Both the position numbers and the translations under genes were made by a program. A stretch of 39,542 nt of DNA from the IMG/VR virus record IMGVR_UViG_3300009103_000067, positions 1-39,542 of that record; one strand, written 5' to 3'. The notes beneath the pieces are model-generated. The model worked only from the letters and a program-made list of their open reading frames with translations, did no database searches and had not been told where the DNA came from. Below, in pieces: positions 1,385-39,542 of the stretch (the stretch's first letter is position 1; each line of letters begins with the position of its first letter). The DNA is from a virus.

Positions 1385-4018
1385 ATGGAATACTCGTACG
1401 AAGATTTAATATTGATGCTTGACAGAGCAGACAAAGCAGGTAATGCAGGTGATGCTCAAGAAATTGTGGCTCTCATTAGGAAATATTATCCGGATGGTAA
1501 GATATCACAGGCTGTAACACCACAAGATATTATAGACCAAGCCTACATTACTGAAGAAGGGTTAGGCAACGTAGCTGTTTTAGTCGATACAGACCAAACA
1601 GACCAAACAGTACAACATCAGTTAACTAATGATGGTGTTATACGACCGCCTACAGCCGCAGAAAACATAACTCAAACAACAAGACCTGCATCTGAATTAG
1701 TCGCTACATTAGATGAGGGCCAAATAGTAACACGAGACCCAAATGGAATCATTAGTTATGTAGACCAAATTAATCGTATCGTTACAGATAATGAAGAAGT
1801 AGTAGCGGCGGCTATGGCCTACTCACGAGGAGAAGAGACAGAACATCCTGCTAAGGTGTATTCAAGATTGAAAGCAATGGAGAATGTTGGCTTTACACAG
1901 AATCCAATTAATTACATGGCAGGACTGACAGGAAACATTGTAGAAGGTGGTTTAGGTTTAGGAAGCTACAGAGACGAAGCAATGGGAGGTTTGAACAATG
2001 CTGTAAACTGGTTATACCAAGCCGCTACTGGTCAAGGAGATTTTGCTGACCAAGGTGGAGGGCAGTTTACTAAACCCGGTCTCCCGGAAAACCTAGTAAT
2101 GACAGGAGACCAAATTTCAGCAAAGTCAGCGCAAATTGATGAAGATTTCGATGAAGCTTATGGAAAAACTGCAATAGCTATGAACGTAACAGGTGGATTA
2201 CTGACTGGTTATATGGCAGGTTCAACTAAAGCGGCCCAAAGGCTTTATAAATGGATTAATGGCTTACCTAAGATATGGAAAGGAATGGCATTAGGCGGTA
2301 CTGGCGGCTTAATAGGCGGAACAGAAGGTGCTATCTACGGATATGGAAGAGGTGAACCCGGTGATAGAGTTGATGAAGCTATTTCTCAAAGTATATTAGG
2401 AGCAGGAATAGGTGCAGTTGTAAACCCAATGATAATGCCTATACAATATGGATGGTCAAGAATAGCAAATGGACTTAAAGACAAAAGTACAGAAGCTATA
2501 GCATCATTGTTTCAAGTCACAAAAGATACCGCACGAATTATTAAAGAAACTGTTGGTGAGACAGGTGCAACGCTAGAGGATATGTTAGCAAATTTAAAAA
2601 GAGGTGGTGATGAGGCTATGTTAGCAGATGCAGATATAGCCACACAAGTTATTACAGATGCAGTAGCGGCGGCAGGTGGAGAGGGCGCATCAACAGTAAA
2701 TACAGCATTAAGACAAAGGGTAACTAACACATATCAAAATCTAGATACTGCAATGAATCAGAATATAGCTGATTTACCATACATGAAGAAACATCCTGAT
2801 ATAAAAGCAGACCCTCAAGAAATAGCGGAACAACAAGCCAAAAAGACTGCTCCGAAGAGAGAAAAAGCATATCAGAAAGCATACGCTCACCAAATTGATT
2901 ATCTAACTCCAAAAGGTGAAGCAGTTAAAAAAGCTCTAGATGATATTGATGAAGATATGTTGACTGAAATATTAAAAAGAGTAAATAGTTCAATTAAAAA
3001 AAGCACAGGCGATACTACTGAGTTGACTTTAAATCGTACTATTAATGCCGCAGGTGATGAGGTAATTACTTTGGGCAGAATGCCTACTATGAAACAGCTT
3101 GATTACATAAAACGTGAATTAAGCCACATTGCATACAGTACACCGGGAGTACCGGCGGTAGGAGAGCCATTACCTGCACTAAGTCAACGAGCAAAAGATG
3201 CTTTAGAGTTACGTTATAATTTGTCAGAAGCTTTAAAAGCGGCTAATCCTGCTTATAAGAAGGCAGTCAAGCTAGGACAAGACAAAATAACACGTGAAAA
3301 CGCTTTATACATGGGTTACCGCATGTTAAACCTTGAAGTCTCTCCGCAAATGGTTACGAGAATGCTAAAAGATGCAGGAGAGGCTGAGAAACAATACGCT
3401 AGGATGGGTATAAGAGCAAATCTAGAGTCTATTGTTCGCAGGATGAGGCCTACACCTTCAAGAATGCCGGATTCTAAAGAATTAGATGAAATGTGGAAAA
3501 TCCTATCATCTTTGGATAACCGAGACATATTAAGACAAGTTTTAGGGCCAAAAGAATTTAAAGCTATGGTCAAGGAGTTAGACAAGGCAGAAGTAGCTAT
3601 TAAATTGAGAGTCTCAGTAGCAGAAAATAGTAAGACAGCCATACGTAGTAATGTTTACAAGTCTATTGAACAGGCTACTGATGAAGCCTCTACAATTAGA
3701 CAAACCATGGCAGAAGGTAGAGGAATAGAAGCAACAAGAAAAATTATACAAAGAATTAACGAAACACAAGCTATTTCTAGAAAACACAAAAAACTTGTAT
3801 TAAGAGAACTTGCAAACGCTATGACTGGTACAAAAGGAAAAGCGGCTATGGAACAATTAAAAGAAGTTTATAATGCTGTTAAGCATGGACAGCAAACAAT
3901 GGAACATATTGAATATCTATCTAATTTACTGGCTACACGTATTAACTTAAACTTAATATCAGGTGCAGTTACAAAAGGAAGAGAAATTAGAGATTACGTC
4001 CAAGGGGAGCAAGAATGA
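1385..4018 (+). CDS. Large internal virion (ejection) protein
   Basis: This 877-residue protein starts two bases after the preceding stop, without a clear Shine-Dalgarno site. Residues roughly 265-355 hold Gly/Ala-rich hydrophobic segments (LGGTGGLIGGTEG and SILGAGIGAVV), which look like glycine-zipper membrane-active stretches. The rest is long charged helices with predicted coiled coil towards the C-terminus. Podovirus ejection proteins commonly combine these features, and the position directly upstream of the portal fits. The family was not identified, and no lysozyme or transglycosylase motif was seen, although a divergent muramidase domain cannot be excluded. Confidence 0.65.
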   Translation: MEYSYEDLILMLDRADKAGNAGDAQEIVALIRKYYPDGKISQAVTPQDIIDQAYITEEGLGNVAVLVDTDQTDQTVQHQLTNDGVIRPPTAAENITQTTRPASELVATLDEGQIVTRDPNGIISYVDQINRIVTDNEEVVAAAMAYSRGEETEHPAKVYSRLKAMENVGFTQNPINYMAGLTGNIVEGGLGLGSYRDEAMGGLNNAVNWLYQAATGQGDFADQGGGQFTKPGLPENLVMTGDQISAKSAQIDEDFDEAYGKTAIAMNVTGGLLTGYMAGSTKAAQRLYKWINGLPKIWKGMALGGTGGLIGGTEGAIYGYGRGEPGDRVDEAISQSILGAGIGAVVNPMIMPIQYGWSRIANGLKDKSTEAIASLFQVTKDTARIIKETVGETGATLEDMLANLKRGGDEAMLADADIATQVITDAVAAAGGEGASTVNTALRQRVTNTYQNLDTAMNQNIADLPYMKKHPDIKADPQEIAEQQAKKTAPKREKAYQKAYAHQIDYLTPKGEAVKKALDDIDEDMLTEILKRVNSSIKKSTGDTTELTLNRTINAAGDEVITLGRMPTMKQLDYIKRELSHIAYSTPGVPAVGEPLPALSQRAKDALELRYNLSEALKAANPAYKKAVKLGQDKITRENALYMGYRMLNLEVSPQMVTRMLKDAGEAEKQYARMGIRANLESIVRRMRPTPSRMPDSKELDEMWKILSSLDNRDILRQVLGPKEFKAMVKELDKAEVAIKLRVSVAENSKTAIRSNVYKSIEQATDEASTIRQTMAEGRGIEATRKIIQRINETQAISRKHKKLVLRELANAMTGTKGKAAMEQLKEVYNAVKHGQQTMEHIEYLSNLLATRINLNLISGAVTKGREIRDYVQGEQE

Positions 4019-10619: not shown

Positions 10620-11324
10620 ATGAATGAGCAAATTGTCTATTATGGATTTACCAATAATCCAGATAGACCACATGGTTTACTACATGGTAAAGAACCAACA
10701 CCTGCGATAAAAGAGTTTGTGGGTGATGCTCATGATTTAAGATTTTTAAAGTGTCCTGCATACAAAGATGTAATGCGAAATGTCTTTGCAATTCCTTCTT
10801 GGTTTACTTTGGAATTAGTAGTTGAGTCAATTGGATTAGGCTCTAATATTGTATCTCAAGATTTCCTTGATAACTATATAACAACTCATAGTGAGAAGAA
10901 AAATGTATATGCAGTAGAACAATCCATGATGTGCATAGCCAAAGATGATTCATTGCTAATGACACAAGAACCTGCATCTATGACAGATAATTCTTTTACA
11001 AGAAGTTGTGGTGTTATAAGTGGAACATTTGATATTGGAAAGCACTTTAGAATGTTGTCTTGTGCTTTTTTTGTCAAACAGGGTGTTAATAAAGTAAATA
11101 TCAATGAGGATGATTCCCTCTATTATTTAAGATTTCATACTGATAAGAAAATAAAGTTTGTTCCATTTTTTATGAGTCCTAAGTTTGAGTCTCTTATATT
11201 AAATCTTGGATTTCAAAATACAAACTCAAATTCTTGGAAACCCTTGGAATATTACTATAAGTTGTTTAAGAAAAAGAATTTAAAGAAATTACTTGTAGAA
11301 GAAATTAAGAAAAATCTCTTATGA
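10620..11324 (+). CDS. Hypothetical protein upstream of the oxygenase trio
   Basis: This 234-residue protein starts at ATG 10620 after AAGGATTAA and overlaps the next gene by four bases. No domain is recognised. It has several Cys and many Phe/Tyr residues and a Lys-rich C-terminus (KLFKKKNLKKLLVEEIKKNL). It is cotranscribed with three 2-oxoglutarate oxygenases, so it may be a partner or a substrate. That is inference from position. Confidence 0.65.
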   Translation: MNEQIVYYGFTNNPDRPHGLLHGKEPTPAIKEFVGDAHDLRFLKCPAYKDVMRNVFAIPSWFTLELVVESIGLGSNIVSQDFLDNYITTHSEKKNVYAVEQSMMCIAKDDSLLMTQEPASMTDNSFTRSCGVISGTFDIGKHFRMLSCAFFVKQGVNKVNINEDDSLYYLRFHTDKKIKFVPFFMSPKFESLILNLGFQNTNSNSWKPLEYYYKLFKKKNLKKLLVEEIKKNLL

Positions 11325-11890
11325 TAAACCATGCCTTTTCTGTTCCTGTAGGACAATATGACCTCAACAGAGAACTTACAAAACAAGAGAAAGATTTTCT
11401 TGATAGTTTGGAGATGGTTGATAACCAACATAATTTAGTTAGTGATAACAGTTATGTGTTGGAAACTTTAAGTGAACTAAAAAAAGAATTAGAGAATATT
11501 GTAAATACTTATGCCAATGAGATATTCAACCTAACAGATGATGCTGAATTATATATAACACAGTCTTGGGTTAATCATACCAATGTTGGGCAAAGGCATC
11601 ATAAACACTATCATTACAACTCACTTATATCTGGAAGCCTTTATATAGATGTAGAACCAATGCGAGATGCGATTGAATTGTGGCGAGATGAAAAACCATT
11701 CTTTAATTTGTATAAAGATACAAGTAGTTGGTTTCCATGTGAAAAGGGCAGAGTATATTTATTTCCATCACATATAGAGCATTCAGTAAGAACTGTAGAG
11801 AGTGGAAACACAAGAGTAAGTTTGGCTTTTAATACTTTTATAAAGGGTGCAATAGGTACAAAACAGACAATGACGAGGTTAATAATATGA
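11321..11890 (+). CDS. Fe(II)/2-oxoglutarate oxygenase 1
   Basis: This 189-residue protein resembles the putative 2OG-Fe(II) oxygenase family frequent in marine cyanophages. The core shows QSWVNHTNVGQRHHKHYHYN with H96 and H98 as probable metal ligands, then LISGSLYID, then a distal LFPSHIEHSV (H151/H154) and R165 in RVSLAFN as probable 2-oxoglutarate contact. Such enzymes hydroxylate proteins, nucleic acids or small molecules; the substrate here is unknown. Start and stop overlap both neighbours by four bases (ATGA), giving translational coupling. Confidence 0.8.
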   Translation: MINHAFSVPVGQYDLNRELTKQEKDFLDSLEMVDNQHNLVSDNSYVLETLSELKKELENIVNTYANEIFNLTDDAELYITQSWVNHTNVGQRHHKHYHYNSLISGSLYIDVEPMRDAIELWRDEKPFFNLYKDTSSWFPCEKGRVYLFPSHIEHSVRTVESGNTRVSLAFNTFIKGAIGTKQTMTRLII

Positions 11891-12468
11891 ATGTTTTAGA
11901 TTATGTTACTGTTGAAAATCTTATGTCCGAAGAGTTTTGTAAAGATTTTCTTAAATTGACAGATAAACAAGAATGGGAAAAACATCGGTGGACATATTCT
12001 AATGAGCCATTTAAAGAATCATCTCATAAAGAGAAAGAGGTAGATATACAGTCCACTACTGTTGAAATGCAAAATGCATTAAATCCTTATATTCAAAGGG
12101 CAACAGAAACATATCTGGATAAATTCCATGAAGATGGTTTGGTTTTTTCGGGTAATACAGATGAAAGAATTTGGATAGTAACTGAATTTACTTCCCCTCG
12201 TCTTAACAAATATGAAGTTGGCACTAAGATGAGAAAACACTATGACCATATTCATAGTTGTTTTGAAGATAGAAAAGGAATACCAGTTTTATCTTTTGTA
12301 GGGGTTTTTAATGACGATTATGAGGGTGGCAAGTTCATGCTAAGAGATACAGAGTATGTTCTAAAAACTGGTGACATACTAATCATGCCTTCTGTTTTCT
12401 TGTATCCTCACGAAGTTACAGAGATTACAAAAGGCACTCGGTATTCATTTGTTGCGTGGGCATTCTAA
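11887..12468 (+). CDS. Fe(II)/2-oxoglutarate oxygenase 2 (prolyl hydroxylase-like)
   Basis: This 193-residue protein carries the facial triad of prolyl-4-hydroxylase-type oxygenases: H118-x-D120 in MRKHYDHIH, H175 in YPHEV, and R185 in TRYSFVAWAF for 2-oxoglutarate. Between them lies FNDDYEGGKFMLRD, the usual Y-x-GG-x-L/F strand, and the GDILIMPS turn. It is a complete double-stranded beta-helix domain of usual length. The substrate is not predictable. It overlaps the upstream gene as ATGA and the downstream gene as TAATG. Confidence 0.85.
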   Translation: MNVLDYVTVENLMSEEFCKDFLKLTDKQEWEKHRWTYSNEPFKESSHKEKEVDIQSTTVEMQNALNPYIQRATETYLDKFHEDGLVFSGNTDERIWIVTEFTSPRLNKYEVGTKMRKHYDHIHSCFEDRKGIPVLSFVGVFNDDYEGGKFMLRDTEYVLKTGDILIMPSVFLYPHEVTEITKGTRYSFVAWAF

Positions 12469-13064
12469 TGAAAGTTGTTAGAGGTGTGGTATCAGAAGAG
12501 TTATCAAGTTTTCTAACTGATTACATTCGCACCTATAAAGATGCCATTACATATATGTTCTCAAGTGGTTATATAACAGAAGATTTAAAAGACTTAGGAA
12601 CATATAGGGATAGACAGGTTTTAGGAACATTCTCCCAATATTCCAATAGGACTATAGAAACCCTATTAAAAAGATTAAGACCAAGGGTTGAGGAAGAAAC
12701 AGGAAAAACTCTTTTTGAATCGTTCTCTTATCTTCGTGCTTATAAGAATGGAGATGAACTATTAAAACACAAAGATGTGAATGCTTGTGAGATTGCTTGT
12801 ACTATACACTTAGGTGGGGATTTATGGAGTATCTTCTTAGAGGGAGAGGAGATTGTCTTAGGGGTTGGCGATATGCTGATATACGATGGTGTTAATGAAT
12901 TTCATTGGAGAGATAAGTTTATAGGTAATGATTGCATACAAGTCATGCTATTTTATTTAGATGCCACCAGAAAAGACATTGATGAACAAAAATATGATGG
13001 TAGACCACTTCTAGGAGTTCCTGTATATTTTAATAACAGGGAAACACTAGAGAGCGATTATTAA
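12468..13064 (+). CDS. Fe(II)/2-oxoglutarate oxygenase 3
   Basis: Translation most likely starts at ATG 12468, which overlaps the upstream stop as TAATG, giving 198 residues; an in-frame GTG at 12456 lies within the previous gene. The core has YLRAYKNGDELLKHKDVNAC with H101-x-D103, then GDMLIYDGVNEFHWRD with H146 and a nearby arginine, and a C-terminal strand IQVMLFYLDA. This is the pattern of a divergent 2OG-Fe(II) dioxygenase. The arginine that holds 2-oxoglutarate is not clear. It is the third consecutive, mutually divergent member of the same fold. Confidence 0.72.
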   Translation: MKVVRGVVSEELSSFLTDYIRTYKDAITYMFSSGYITEDLKDLGTYRDRQVLGTFSQYSNRTIETLLKRLRPRVEEETGKTLFESFSYLRAYKNGDELLKHKDVNACEIACTIHLGGDLWSIFLEGEEIVLGVGDMLIYDGVNEFHWRDKFIGNDCIQVMLFYLDATRKDIDEQKYDGRPLLGVPVYFNNRETLESDY

Positions 13065-17967: not shown

Positions 17968-18170
17968 AACTCTGTCTCCTCTATTATTATAGGCTTATCT
18001 TCCAAAAACCCATCACATGCTGTGGGGGTTTCGCTCTCGCACAATAACTGTTCATTGACCACATTAGGTGGCAATAGCAATGAATCTTGTTTCTCAGCCA
18101 TCATGTTCTCAAATGCACTACAGCCTGATACTAAGAGTGCTAGTGCAAATATTTTAAAATGGTATGTCAT
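17964..18170 (-). CDS. Small lipoprotein
   Basis: The ATG at 18170 is preferred over the TTG at 18176 because GGAG lies seven bases before it, inside the end of the SSB gene. The 68-residue product has a short signal peptide and a lipobox V-S-G-C with the lipidated Cys at about residue 17, so it should be anchored in a membrane. Two further Cys are present in the mature part. Candidate roles are outer-membrane spanin-like protein or superinfection exclusion; the sequence does not decide. Confidence 0.7.
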   Translation of the reverse strand: MTYHFKIFALALLVSGCSAFENMMAEKQDSLLLPPNVVNEQLLCESETPTACDGFLEDKPIIIEETEL

Positions 18171-18648
18171 CTTCAAACTCCTTATCTAATTCAACAGGGG
18201 GAATTTTCTGTGGAGCGACATCAAGATGCTCGTACGCTGACGAATTATTTTGAGGCTCAGGATTTTTCTCGTACGCTGACGAATTATTTTGAGGCTCAGG
18301 ATTTTTGGCTGACAGAACTTGTATCGTTGAACCAAACCCGGAGAGCTTGACCTCAGTAACATATTTTTTGACACCTGACTTGTCCAAATAGTCTCTGTGA
18401 GTTAGCTGTCCTTCAACGTAAAGCTGTGAACCTGTACCAAGGCTTAACTTCTGAACAATCTCAGCGACCTTGTTAAAACAGGTAACTCGATGATACTCAG
18501 AACGTTCTTGCTTCTCCCCGGTCTGCTTGTCTGTCCAAGATTCATTTGTTGCTAAATTTAACAGAGCAACTACTCCACCTTTAGAAGTTGGTTTTATCTC
18601 AGGCGGTTGTGTTAAATTACCTACTAGTATTACTTTATTGATGCTCAT
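18154..18648 (-). CDS. ssb: Single-stranded DNA-binding protein
   Basis: This 164-residue protein starts at ATG 18648 after GAAGGAGAAGTA. The OB fold is recognisable from INKVILVGNLTQPPEIK, then LATNESWTDKQTGEKQER and SEYHRVTCFNKVAEI, up to LYVEGQLTHRDY, as in bacterial SSBs. The C-terminus ends EFEDDIPF, the canonical acidic tip that recruits replication and repair proteins. The flexible linker contains a perfect 13-residue duplication (KNPEPQNNSSAYE type) caused by a 39-bp tandem repeat. It lies next to a Rad52-like annealing protein, forming a recombination unit. Confidence 0.95.
   Translation of the reverse strand: MSINKVILVGNLTQPPEIKPTSKGGVVALLNLATNESWTDKQTGEKQERSEYHRVTCFNKVAEIVQKLSLGTGSQLYVEGQLTHRDYLDKSGVKKYVTEVKLSGFGSTIQVLSAKNPEPQNNSSAYEKNPEPQNNSSAYEHLDVAPQKIPPVELDKEFEDDIPF
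18229..18306. repeat. Two tandem 39-bp repeats inside ssb
   Basis: Units 18229-18267 and 18268-18306 are identical over 39 bases and in frame, duplicating 13 residues of the SSB linker. Each holds TCGTACG, then CTGACG, then AATTATTTT, the same bipartite element as the 21-bp repeats at 17443-17484. Confidence 0.92.
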
Positions 18649-18673
18649 TACTTCTCCTTCAATTAAAATTAGG

Positions 18674-18692
18674 TGACTGCTTAGGGCAGTCA
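18674..18692 (-). promoter_or_regulatory. Stem-loop upstream of ssb
   Basis: TGACTGC (18674-18680) and GCAGTCA (18686-18692) form a perfect 7-bp stem with a 5-base loop in the 103-base gap before the SSB start. There is no T-run. It may be an mRNA-processing or stabilising hairpin in the leftward transcript. Confidence 0.4.
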
Positions 18693-18751
18693 ATCCAGTA
18701 GCGTTTGTCTTTAACTAACGAGCTATAGGATGCCCGACAACAGCGTAGGTG

Positions 18752-21338: not shown

Positions 21339-22061
21339 TTATCTGTAGCTTCCTAAACCACCACCTTCTCTGTCGTTTTCAAGAATTAGAAGGAGGGCAT
21401 TTTCGTATGCTTTGCACCAGTTCATATTGTCTGCTCTCCAACTCATTCTCATGTCGAAGACTTCATCACAAGTACATTGATAATCTTTAACCTCTCGCAT
21501 CTCATAACACTCACAGGTATCCCGGTCATCATAGACTTCGATTTCCCGAAGCTCCTCTATATTGTGACGTTCAATAACCAACCACTCGAACTGCTTCATC
21601 AAGTCCTTGCATTTCTGCTTGTACGAAATCCCCTTCTTGCGAGGTTTAGGTTCATCGAGTGCATTAGGTTTTAACAAATCCTCACGAGTAAACCTCTTAG
21701 AGATTTCATCAAGGTGATGTTGCTCTAGTGGATATTTTCTGTACTGGTGATGACGATAACCATAAGAGTGCATCAACTCATGTGCAAACACTTGAGCAAT
21801 CCATTCAAGGTCAGCCAGTTTATTGATAGACATTCTCAGATGCCAGTCTTTTCTTCTAAACCTACCGGGTTTGCCAACACAAGCTACACCACTAACATCA
21901 CGTTGGGGTATTCCACCACCATTCCTGCTAATCAACTTAACTGCAAGAGTTGACCAATGAGGCAACCTGCCTTCGTACTTGGCAAGTTGCTTATGGATAA
22001 GACAAAACAAACTGTGCAGTTTCTTAGTCTCATATAGAGAAGTGTTTTTAATTATCTTCAT
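21339..22061 (-). CDS. Metzincin-motif zinc metalloprotease
   Basis: ATG 22061 is chosen (TAATG overlap with the preceding gene) rather than the upstream TTG. The 240-residue protein contains AHELMHSYGYRHH, with H94-E95-x-x-H98-x-x-G101-x-x-H104 exactly matching the metzincin zinc signature HExxHxxGxxH. A preceding WHLRMSINKLADLEWIAQVF strand-helix fits small phage peptidases. The C-terminal half has a CxC...CxC cluster (183, 185, 196, 198) that may bind a second zinc. The substrate is unknown; host protein cleavage early in infection is the simplest guess. Confidence 0.75.
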   Translation of the reverse strand: MKIIKNTSLYETKKLHSLFCLIHKQLAKYEGRLPHWSTLAVKLISRNGGGIPQRDVSGVACVGKPGRFRRKDWHLRMSINKLADLEWIAQVFAHELMHSYGYRHHQYRKYPLEQHHLDEISKRFTREDLLKPNALDEPKPRKKGISYKQKCKDLMKQFEWLVIERHNIEELREIEVYDDRDTCECYEMREVKDYQCTCDEVFDMRMSWRADNMNWCKAYENALLLILENDREGGGLGSYR

Positions 22062-22426
22062 TACTTGTCTCCCCAATCTTTACGAGGGTCAATTTTAATA
22101 AAGGCATCCTTTGCATTGCGAAGGGCAATCTTTATATCAATAACCTCACCTTCAAGTTGACGATTCCTGTCGTAAATCACCTGCATAGATTCTTGCAGTT
22201 TAGAGATTTGCTCCTGCTGTCTCTGTATGACTCCTAATAGAGTCACTTGAGGTTTAAGGTGGTCGTGAGGGTTCACAGCAGAATCAATATCAAGTACGTC
22301 AGAAGACACCATATTGCCATCCTCAGTAAGTAACCCTGTCCAGTTGTTGCCAAGGTTTGCCCATCCCTCGATACGCTCATCAACTTCGTCATTGAAGTTG
22401 TCTACATCATAAGTTGAAATCCCCAT
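22061..22426 (-). CDS. Coiled-coil hypothetical protein
   Basis: This 121-residue protein has an acidic N-terminus (STYDVDNFNDEVDERIEGW) and a C-terminal coiled coil of about 45 residues (VIQRQQEQISKLQESMQVIY) ending KDWGDK. It is translationally coupled at both ends (TAATG). No family is recognised. Confidence 0.68.
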   Translation of the reverse strand: MGISTYDVDNFNDEVDERIEGWANLGNNWTGLLTEDGNMVSSDVLDIDSAVNPHDHLKPQVTLLGVIQRQQEQISKLQESMQVIYDRNRQLEGEVIDIKIALRNAKDAFIKIDPRKDWGDK

Positions 22427-24620: not shown

Positions 24621-24650
24621 AAAATAGGGTCAGAAATTAGACCTATTTTT
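24621..24650. terminator. AT-rich hairpin flanked by A and T runs
   Basis: AAAATAGGGTC and GACCTATTTTT pair with one bulged G across an 8-base loop. A/T runs on both sides allow terminator function in either direction, which would insulate the leftward promoter from rightward transcripts and vice versa. Confidence 0.45.
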
Positions 24651-24671
24651 CAGGGAAACTTTCAGCTTTTT

Positions 24672-24689
24672 AAGTCATGCAAGTCATGC
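24672..24689. repeat. Tandem 9-bp repeat AAGTCATGC
   Basis: AAGTCATGC occurs twice head to tail (24672-24680 and 24681-24689) followed by ATG. It is an iteron- or operator-like site 70 bases upstream of the leftward promoter. Confidence 0.7.
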
Positions 24690-24920
24690 ATGTTTTTTAG
24701 TTAATTTGACAGAATTTGAAAAGTGGGCCTTCAGCAAGGGGTCAAATCTTCGATTCTAGAGGTGCAAGATGTCTAGCTTAATGCTAGTATGTCTTTTCAA
24801 TAATCTCTAGTTTGCTACATTTATATACAACTCGATATGCTACTTTTTATAGCAGAAAAAATTATTTTTTTAAGAAACTTTTTTCGATGATTCAATTTAG
24901 TTTATCATCTCTTTTATGCG

Positions 24921-24990
24921 GTTTAGAAATTCAATGCTTCAAAAAGCAAAAACCCCAAGAGTGATTGATGCCTCTTGAGGTCTTCTAAAC
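24921..24990. other. Three-helix structured element
   Basis: GTTTAGAA (24921-24928) pairs perfectly with TTCTAAAC (24983-24990). Enclosed are GCTT/AAGC (24936-24947, 4-base loop) and CCCCAAGAG/CTCTTGAGG (24953-24961 with 24972-24980, one mismatch). The helices together form a three-way junction of 70 bases. No known RNA family was matched, and hammerhead core sequences are absent. Confidence 0.5.
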
Positions 24991-24998
24991 TTGGTGTG

Positions 24999-25028
24999 CT
25001 GACCACCTGTTCTGAGATGTATTATACT
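24999..25028 (+). promoter_or_regulatory. Rightward promoter candidate
   Basis: CTGACC (24999-25004), an 18-base spacer and TATACT (25023-25028) form a modest promoter. A transcript would start near 25035, about 12 bases before the left arm of the long inverted repeat, which fits a dedicated RNA or a long leader of the 25548 gene. A second, weaker candidate is TTGTAA-N16-GATAAT at 25275-25302. Confidence 0.35.
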
Positions 25029-25402
25029 TAAATTCTCACAAAAGCAAGTTGGTTTAGCTCACCATTGATACGACAGGTGAAATGTCTGACTTCGGTTTCA
25101 CTCACACCTGAAAACAAAAAAGAGATTCAGCAATTGTATTCCGCATAACTGTTGATTGATGTTAGATTAAGAAGCTTTATATTGGTAACCACCTTGGAGC
25201 GATAAAGAAATCTAGCGCAGAGTGCAGAAGGCTGAGTACCTATTACAAGGTAGCGATGACTCTGACCTGATTAGTTGTAATCGTTTCAGGCATACGGATA
25301 ATACTGCGATGCGCTTTATACCGATGAAATTCTCTAGAGTCTGCCCAAAACAGGCTCTAGGGATTTCTGTACTCCGAAACCCTCAGCTCCACGCTTAACC
25401 CG

Positions 25403-25490
25403 ATAAAAAAAAAGAAAGAAAAAAAAGGGATTTATCCCTCAGCTTTACCAAGGAGAGTCGCTGAAAGCGAAACATAAAGCTAAACCAACT
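25403..25490 (-). ncRNA. Candidate antisense small RNA ending in a terminator
   Basis: Read leftward, this stretch has AGCTTTA/TAAAGCT (25481-25475 with 25447-25441) enclosing TCGCT-TTC-AGCGA, followed by AGGGA-TAAA-TCCCT (25439-25426) and a T-rich tract. Hairpin, hairpin, terminator is the usual build of a small bacterial RNA. It would be antisense to the 3' part of the larger candidate RNA. A convincing promoter was not found; TTGACT near 25526-25531 lacks a -10 at proper spacing. Confidence 0.35.
25405..25439 (-). terminator. Terminator-like hairpin with T tract
   Basis: On the leftward strand AGGGAT-AA-ATCCCT is followed by seven to eight T, then C, TTT, C and nine T. It has the features of an intrinsic terminator, although the stem has only about five GC-containing pairs. 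On the rightward strand the same bases form a long A-rich tract before the hairpin. Confidence 0.55.
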
Positions 25491-25547
25491 AACGCACAGT
25501 ATCTTTTCTGATACAATTAAATCTAAGTCAACTAATTATTTAAGGAT

Positions 25548-25763
25548 ATGGATACTAAAGGAATAATCTATTACAAATCTATCCCTGCTGAAATCAAGAA
25601 GCTAGGCATAACCCAAAAAGAATGTGCAGAGATGATGGGAGTAAGCCTATCCGGTTTAACTCATAGAATCAAAGCTGACAGGCCGCAATTTCATTTAGCC
25701 ATTTTCGGATTAGCCTCGTATCTTGGAGCAGAGGGCGGTAACTTACAGTCCAATGTCAAATGA
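25548..25763 (+). CDS. Cro-like helix-turn-helix regulator
   Basis: This 71-residue protein contains IKKLGITQKECAEMMGVSLS followed by GLTHRIKADRP (residues about 15-46), a standard Cro/C1-type helix-turn-helix in which ITQKECAEMMGVS is the helix-turn and SGLTHRI the recognition helix. It is the first gene of the rightward operon, directly after the structured region, so it probably controls one or both divergent promoters. AAGGA stands unusually close to the ATG. Confidence 0.75.
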   Translation: MDTKGIIYYKSIPAEIKKLGITQKECAEMMGVSLSGLTHRIKADRPQFHLAIFGLASYLGAEGGNLQSNVK

Positions 25764-39230: not shown

Positions 39231-39542
39231 ATGAGTTTAGGACTAGGACAATTATTAGGAGGAGCTATACTTGGAAGTGGTTTGTTCGGCGGTAATGACG
39301 AGGACGAAGAGAAACAAGGCATCATGGGTGGTCTTACAAACATTAGTAACTCTATGTTTGCCGGGATGTCACGAGAACAGGTGTACAGACTAGGCCAAGG
39401 CTTCAATACAATGCGTTTAGAGCCTGACCAAGCTATGCACGAAAGTTTTGAGAACAGAATTAGCGATATACGTGCTACTGATGCCGCTACTGCGAACAAA
39501 AACGCTACTGTAACCGCTTTATTAGGTATGACTTCAGACAAA
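39231..39542 (+). CDS. Internal virion protein, N-terminal part (continues at position 3)
   Basis: ATG 39231 follows TAGGAGATAGAG. The frame runs off the window edge and, through the terminal repeat, continues into the gene ending at 1382, for a total of about 524 residues. The N-terminus is Gly/Leu-rich (LGLGQLLGGAILGSGLFGGN), a glycine-zipper-like hydrophobic segment, followed by an acidic turn and a helix containing REQVYRLGQGF. Confidence 0.8.
   Translation, partial: MSLGLGQLLGGAILGSGLFGGNDEDEEKQGIMGGLTNISNSMFAGMSREQVYRLGQGFNTMRLEPDQAMHESFENRISDIRATDAATANKNATVTALLGMTSDK
39424..39542. repeat. Terminal direct repeat, copy 2
   Basis: Identical to bases 1-119; see copy 1. The reading frame is continuous when the two copies are superimposed, so the genome closes without a frameshift. 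Confidence 0.95.

Follow-up and report, generated by a model that had tools for sequence, protein, structure and literature searches.

Gene layout around the intergenic region

The window, the whole 39,542-nucleotide stretch of viral DNA that we analyzed, begins and ends with the same 119 bases (1-119 and 39424-39542, a direct terminal repeat), indicating that the record is a complete genome, probably circular or terminally redundant, with ~39.4 kb of unique sequence. The leftward genes extend from 24524 to about 17000 and encode a match to phrog_11717, which we read as a putative ERF-like annealing protein, together with a single-strand DNA-binding protein (SSB), a DUF932 protein and proteins of unknown function. 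The rightward genes extend from 25548 to the end of the record and round to about 17000; this block carries a cro-like helix-turn-helix (HTH) gene and the VRR nuclease, HNH, NinB, terminase, portal, capsid and tail genes. A gene-free gap of about 1 kb separates the two divergent blocks and contains the interval 25047-25490, for which the original prediction had proposed a new structured RNA or RNA-based origin. Its placement between divergent operons was confirmed by gene annotation. Landmarks of the two blocks are as follows:

18154-18693, minus strand: SSB gene, found in 16 of 23 RNA-bearing records, many of which are fragments
25500-25517, plus strand: PR, promoter of the rightward operon, with the extended -10 TGATACAAT at 25509-25517
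25548-25763, plus strand: cro-like HTH gene, invariably the first gene rightward of the RNA

The extended -10 of PR has the form TGATA[C/T]AAT in 36 of 38 relatives. It is overlapped by a palindrome, TATC-N6-GATA (25500-25513), which is kept in many relatives and is likely the operator of the cro-like protein. The structure model of that protein was helical and gave weak lambda-repressor-like matches only, none with an E value below 0.7. Elsewhere in the genome we noted an auxiliary metabolic cluster (11321-13064), in which two 2OG-Fe(II) oxygenase-like proteins are followed by a PHROG ferrochelatase-family match, and a minus-strand gene (21339-22076) whose product contains a metalloprotease-like HELMHSYGYRHH motif and is perhaps SprT-like; several relatives have such a protein among the leftward genes near the RNA. 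No tRNA genes were found in the genome.

Distribution of the element

We scanned IMG/VR with TerL and recovered relatives that carry the region in the same place at about 70-85% identity. One RNA core pattern matched 71 IMG/VR contigs, again with the RNA in the same place, and our alignment comprised 38 non-redundant sequences (mean pairwise identity 61% prior to the removal of one duplicate). The gene order varies little: SSB, the phrog_11717-like gene and further leftward genes, the RNA, and then the cro-like gene, R2, VRR, HNH, NinB, TerS and TerL. An independent search with the cro-like protein found the RNA in 47 of 47 and then in 52 of 52 newly fetched loci, two sets that overlap in contigs. 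Since these loci were fetched by the protein, the presence of the RNA in them is unbiased by the RNA pattern.

No Rfam release 15 family reached its gathering score across the whole window, and nothing credible appeared at E values up to 10; GOLLD, ROOL and HEARO, which the original prediction had offered for comparison, gave no match in the Rfam covariance comparison. Neither the interval nor the cro-like protein matched the named phages searched, the RNA had no match among the plasmids searched, and the RNA pattern and the cro-like protein had none in the bacterial genomes searched. Given these absences, the RNA represents a new family, present in at least 71 environmental phage contigs; few ornate phage RNAs are known, and this large structured one is a well-supported addition.

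The divergent member L201/L253 encodes a cro-like protein with 55% identity over the matched stretch, and its terminase is only 37% identical. It retained the RNA core (covariance model E value of 1e-10, stems re-paired) as well as both the first and the A-run hairpins, and SSB, HNH and NinB lie close by. The conservation of the core despite a terminase of 37% identity suggests that the RNA travels with the DNA-metabolism genes and not with one terminase type.

Extent, strand and structure of the long RNA

The transcription unit on the plus strand consists of the following:

24880-24908, plus strand: P+, putative promoter of the long RNA (-35 TTTTTC at 24880-24885, -10 TATCAT at 24903-24908)
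24915-25491, plus strand: long structured RNA, with a predicted 5' end, a place conserved in relatives, and covariation

The aligned position of P+ is conserved, and many relatives have the near-consensus, sigma70-type form TTGACC-17-TATGAT. We infer from the sequence a start site at about 24914-24916. On the 3' side, conserved structure continues to 25470 and conserved sequence to 25491, and the RNA is predicted to reach at least 25470. The transcript would thus be a non-coding RNA of roughly 500-600 nucleotides that passes both ends, 25047 and 25490, of the interval to which it had originally been assigned. The terminator scan detected no plus-strand terminator after the long RNA and ahead of the cro-like gene. 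No small reading frame is conserved across the relatives, though the nucleotides are, in agreement with the earlier observation that the interval is free of reading frames.

Covariation was scored in an alignment (A1) corresponding to 25070-25372 of the window, for a structure of 64 pairs. In A1, 98.1% of the cells were paired, 28 pairs showed changes on both sides and 234 cells were doubly changed. No shuffle out of 500 reached these three figures, and with the partner displaced by 1-3 columns 33-43% of cells were paired. The pairing cells of the long RNA contained 219 G-U against 13 A-C combinations, an excess that fixes the plus strand as the RNA strand; the fold of the whole interval, compared with shuffles, gave z = -4.0 on the plus strand and -1.5 on the minus strand. 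A minus-strand RNA was ruled out by the base-pair counts and the fold scores together.

The original prediction was built around a perfect 13-bp inverted repeat, which is indeed exact (25047-25059 and 25478-25490, with 418 nt between the arms) and, as had been supposed, improbable by chance: a perfect 13-bp repeat turned up in 1.5% of resamplings when the 1-kb region was redrawn under a first-order Markov model. One could argue for a chance repeat, or for a DNA-level element devoid of RNA structure, from the fact that the repeat alone is expected at about 1.5% in 1 kb and is not conserved beyond one sub-clade. The 98.1% of paired cells, the 28 doubly changed pairs and the strong G-U strand bias refute this explanation, to which we attach practically no weight; together with the conservation and the lack of an Rfam match they bear out the claim of a new structured RNA.

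The structural elements, in order, are as follows:

25074-25110, plus strand: hairpin with the strongest covariation, 6 of 6 outer pairs changed on both sides; also in divergent L201
25128-25151, plus strand: hairpin, 95.9% of cells paired, changes one-sided only
25152-25391, plus strand: core five-stem junction, closed by 25152-25158 with 25384-25391; closing helix 95% paired
25160-25217, plus strand: core stem 1, 98.6% paired, 5 of 6 pairs changed on both sides
25218-25264, plus strand: core stem 2, 100% paired, with a conserved internal-loop sequence; re-paired in divergent L201
25266-25290, plus strand: core stem 3, 100% paired, 4 of 5 pairs changed on both sides
25291-25326, plus strand: core stem 4, 91.5% paired, no compensatory changes
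25328-25366, plus strand: core stem 5, 98.5% paired, upper pairs changed on both sides
25404-25440, no strand assigned: A-rich tract and then hairpin AGGGA-UUUA-UCCCU, re-paired in many relatives; also in divergent L201
25458-25470, plus strand: hairpin CGCU-GAA-AGCG, alternating with CUCC-GAA-GGAG, 93% paired, with changes on both sides

The five core stems are joined by linkers of 0-1 nt, and the helix that closes them contains 47 G-U against 3 A-C combinations. The apical part of core stem 1 is missing in L005, L008, L076, L078 and L091. Three abutting hairpins had been described at 25266-25290, 25291-25326 and 25327-25367; all three are present, conserved across the 38 sequences and separated by 0-1 nt, and the compensatory changes looked for in them were found in core stems 3 and 5 and not in core stem 4. 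The terminator scan flagged the U-rich stretch 3' of core stem 5 as terminator-like, and this tail is not conserved, reading AUUUCUUU, AUUACUU or AUUGAUU. Read on the minus strand, 25404-25440 is also terminator-like (stem 25440-25425, then a T-run), although some family members have a weak T-run or none.

The antisense unit and the 5' domain

A second, opposing unit, which the original prediction had not noted, overlaps the 5' domain of the long RNA, and the arms of the 13-bp repeat lie near it and at the 3' side:

24943-25014, minus strand: putative antisense small RNA of about 70 nt that could base-pair within the leading ~100 nt of the long RNA
24993-25063, plus strand: stem P2, long-range, with arms at 24993-25006 (5') and 25048-25063 (3')
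25021-25047, minus strand: P-anti, putative antisense promoter, TTGCTT-15-TATAAT here, usual form TTGCCA/T-16-TATAAT
25047-25059, plus strand: left arm of the 13-bp closing stem, in the window sub-clade only (the window, L032, L036, L041, L092 and close kin)
25478-25490, plus strand: right arm of the closing stem; its CUAAACC could also pair with GGUUUAG at the RNA 5' end (24920-24926)

A leftward promoter matching P-anti (TTGNNN-15/16-TATAAT) is present in 37 of 38 family members. The antisense RNA consists of a short hairpin and then an intrinsic terminator (stem 24984-24948, T-run 24947-24943) whose 14-pair stem had 92.6% of cells paired and 10 of 14 pairs changed on both sides; read on the minus strand, it contained 85 G-U against 13 A-C combinations. 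The opposing promoter and terminator would make an antisense RNA of ~70 nt over the 5' domain, including one arm of P2. At the level of sequence, we consider the structured RNA and its antisense unit established. The antisense domain is absent from L201/L253, suggesting that it is an accessory module.

Stem P2 is mutually exclusive with a local hairpin, GGUG...CACC (24993-25008), and its 5' arm lies inside the antisense-covered segment. Arms from the same genome paired at -10.8 kcal/mol compared to -7.6 +/- 0.42 kcal/mol for shuffled partners (0 of 300 shuffles; relatedness among the sequences was not removed from this comparison), and per-sequence folds also supported P2. The switching suggested earlier from alternative pairings found support at P2 and its local competitor, and lost it at ACCTTG (25191) and CAAGGT (25246), where CAAGGT covaries with a local partner at 25238-25241.

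The 13-bp closing stem did not hold up as a family feature: its left arm is absent outside the window sub-clade, and within the sub-clade most members carry one uncompensated A-C. When the antisense-covered bases of the window RNA were barred from pairing in silico, P2 was lost and the closing stem formed, so that this stem may well represent a possible antisense-bound state of the window sub-clade. The same masking in 33 sequences raised 5'-3' pairing in 11 and lowered it in 7, an effect that is not family-wide, and we rejected an antisense-driven 5'-3' closure of the whole family as unsupported.

An antisense RNA against the 5' region and a predicted 5'-3' pairing both recall hok mRNA, which raises the possibility that the long RNA is a structured messenger for a small protein, such as a hok/sok-like type I toxin under antisense control. 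With nucleotides conserved across the relatives and a small reading frame not, this proposal is nearly refuted and we regard it as very improbable.

Replication genes

In the window genome we recognized SSB and recombination genes only, and no polymerase, helicase, primase or initiator; protein family scans thus upheld the earlier remark that the phage has no recognizable replicase. Two near-complete relatives have a similar gene set. DnaB-type and SF2 helicases were absent from 23 RNA-bearing records, many of them fragments, and DNA polymerase A and DUF5906 from the 12 RNA-bearing records tested. The family scans recognized no replicon-encoded initiator, but the leftward block includes several proteins without an assigned function, and an initiator could be among them.

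Paracoccus phage KLEP18-1, the closest named relative by terminase (51%), carries helicase and primase-polymerase genes in its rightward operon and had no match to the RNA core model. The Prim-Pol family PF09250 had no match anywhere, including KLEP18-1, and was therefore uninformative. Neither the replication families tested nor the RNA had a match in Sulfitobacter phage pCB2047-A, so the lack of replication genes is not specific to RNA-bearing phages. GC skew changes sign at the RNA region, as does gene direction, and we discarded the skew as an origin signal because of this confounding.

Possible function of the RNA

ColE1 initiates from RNA II, which starts about 550 nt upstream of the origin, with an RNA I of about 110 nt directed against the RNA II 5' end and no initiator protein (PMC5043065, PMC11012335). 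Like ColE1/pMB1, the phage locus appears from its sequence to specify a long non-coding transcript of similar length from a sigma70-type promoter (PMC5043065, PMC11012335). It likewise has a predicted short antisense RNA, with opposing promoter and terminator, that covers the first ~100 nt; antisense pairing would be expected to change downstream folding, and the family scans recognized no initiator protein. The phage RNA is nevertheless not a sequence homologue of the plasmid system: it resides in phage genomes, has no sequence, Rfam or plasmid similarity, and was seen with no Rom. Its antisense RNA has two hairpins, unlike the three of ColE1 RNA I, and the antisense domain is missing in the most divergent member. 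We dropped a further parallel, in which the A-run and hairpin at 25404-25440 corresponded to the ColE1 origin through the pMB1 motif AAAAAAAGGATCTC...GATCC as the RNA/DNA junction; the existence of the motif in plasmids was confirmed, and we take it to sit at the RNA II promoter.

This anatomy accommodates the earlier phrase 'large regulatory RNA or replication primer', with the primer as the leading reading. The pattern of replication genes, including the contrast with KLEP18-1, and the sense/antisense layout favor an RNA-primed origin, and we tentatively propose that a ColE1-like, antisense-controlled transcript opens or primes the phage origin; this is the likeliest of three live explanations, at somewhat below an even chance. 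In the proposed sequence of events, host RNA polymerase would make the long RNA while the antisense RNA arises from the same DNA and, by pairing with the 5' hairpins, blocks the formation of P2. As phage copies accumulate, a smaller fraction of transcripts would adopt the productive fold. Transcripts in that fold would remain hybridized to the template at their 3' end (past the core, about 25400-25490), host RNase H would trim the hybrid, and host DNA polymerase I would extend the RNA as a leading-strand primer. The host replisome could then take over, with the phage SSB and recombination proteins making concatemers, and the phage would hence need no initiator, helicase, primase or polymerase of its own. 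It is conceivable, although the balance leans against it, that a lineage of tailed phages dropped all replication enzymes in this way and starts copying from a structured RNA primer set by its antisense, an RNA-only switch. A true primer would explain how phages devoid of replication genes are copied and would make the phage a replicon with RNA as its sole control.

Phage T4 is known to prime from R-loops (PMC3016281). The locus resembles the T4 oriF and oriG R-loop origins in that a phage transcript is the candidate primer and the genome also encodes recombination proteins (PMC3016281). The two differ in that oriF R-loop formation is described as independent of specific sequences, antisense control is not described in T4, and T4 encodes its own replisome. 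Against priming, the long RNA lacks a G-rich/C-rich pair like that of the ColE1 RNA II hybrid element (longest G run 3 and C run 4 within 24915-25492). The fixed site just upstream of the cro-like operon also counts against the primer, since a leader RNA would fit it too.

Such a leader would form the 5' end of the rightward (recombination, packaging and structural) operon and act in cis on the polymerase that transcribes it, either through put-like antitermination or through attenuation, and the antisense RNA would switch it off. The cro-like operon lies downstream of the RNA in every locus examined with no plus-strand terminator in between, no N- or Q-type antiterminator was recognized among the proteins scanned, and the U-rich, terminator-like stretch after core stem 5 also counts in favor of a leader. 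That tail is not conserved, however. A conserved extended -10 promoter belonging to the operon itself follows the RNA in 36 of 38 relatives, so that many transcripts would be made without the leader. In the put antitermination RNAs of HK022 a structured RNA heads a phage operon, as it would here, but the present RNA is far larger, has an antisense partner and precedes an operon with its own promoter. We consider a leader rather unlikely.

Slightly less likely still is a trans-acting role, in which an ornate RNA or RNA-protein complex of the GOLLD/ROOL kind would work, for instance, on the host machinery or inside the virion, and its position and antisense would set only the timing. Its size, compact multi-stem core and conserved internal-loop sequences would suit a tertiary structure or protein site, and GOLLD and ROOL, whose function is unknown, are likewise large non-coding phage RNAs with a high degree of structure (PMC12286853). 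The present RNA differs from them by its lack of an Rfam match, its antisense partner, its fixed place upstream of a cro-like gene, and a genome with no tRNA genes, whereas GOLLD and ROOL are often near tRNA islands (PMC12286853); an RNA acting in trans would also have no need to adjoin one gene in every genome. If either the leader or the trans-acting explanation were true, the locus would still represent a new family of large phage RNA under antisense control.

Other features of the intergenic region

A second non-coding block at 24720-24800 (CTTCAGCAAGGGGTCAAATCTTCGATTCTAGAG...) shows nucleotide conservation only in the window sub-clade (L005, L032, L036, L041 and L092) and is possibly a further small RNA or regulatory site. 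Two plus-strand terminator-like hairpins (24627-24644 and 24676-24692) precede P+ where the leftward operon begins; the hairpins within 24627-24698 may serve to insulate the long RNA or to terminate a different short transcript. At its positions 3922-3970, close to where the RNA region ends on the 3' side, L032 carries an inserted, inverted copy of window 24656-24704 that is 78% identical. Variable inserts occur between the A-run hairpin and the 3' hairpin in L022, L092, L106, L110, L113, L122 and L201, and the hairpin-like motifs in these inserts (GAGCGAAGCGATGCG, CGAACGAAGTGGAGTGCGTTC) are related, giving the impression that hairpin modules at the 3' side have been exchanged.
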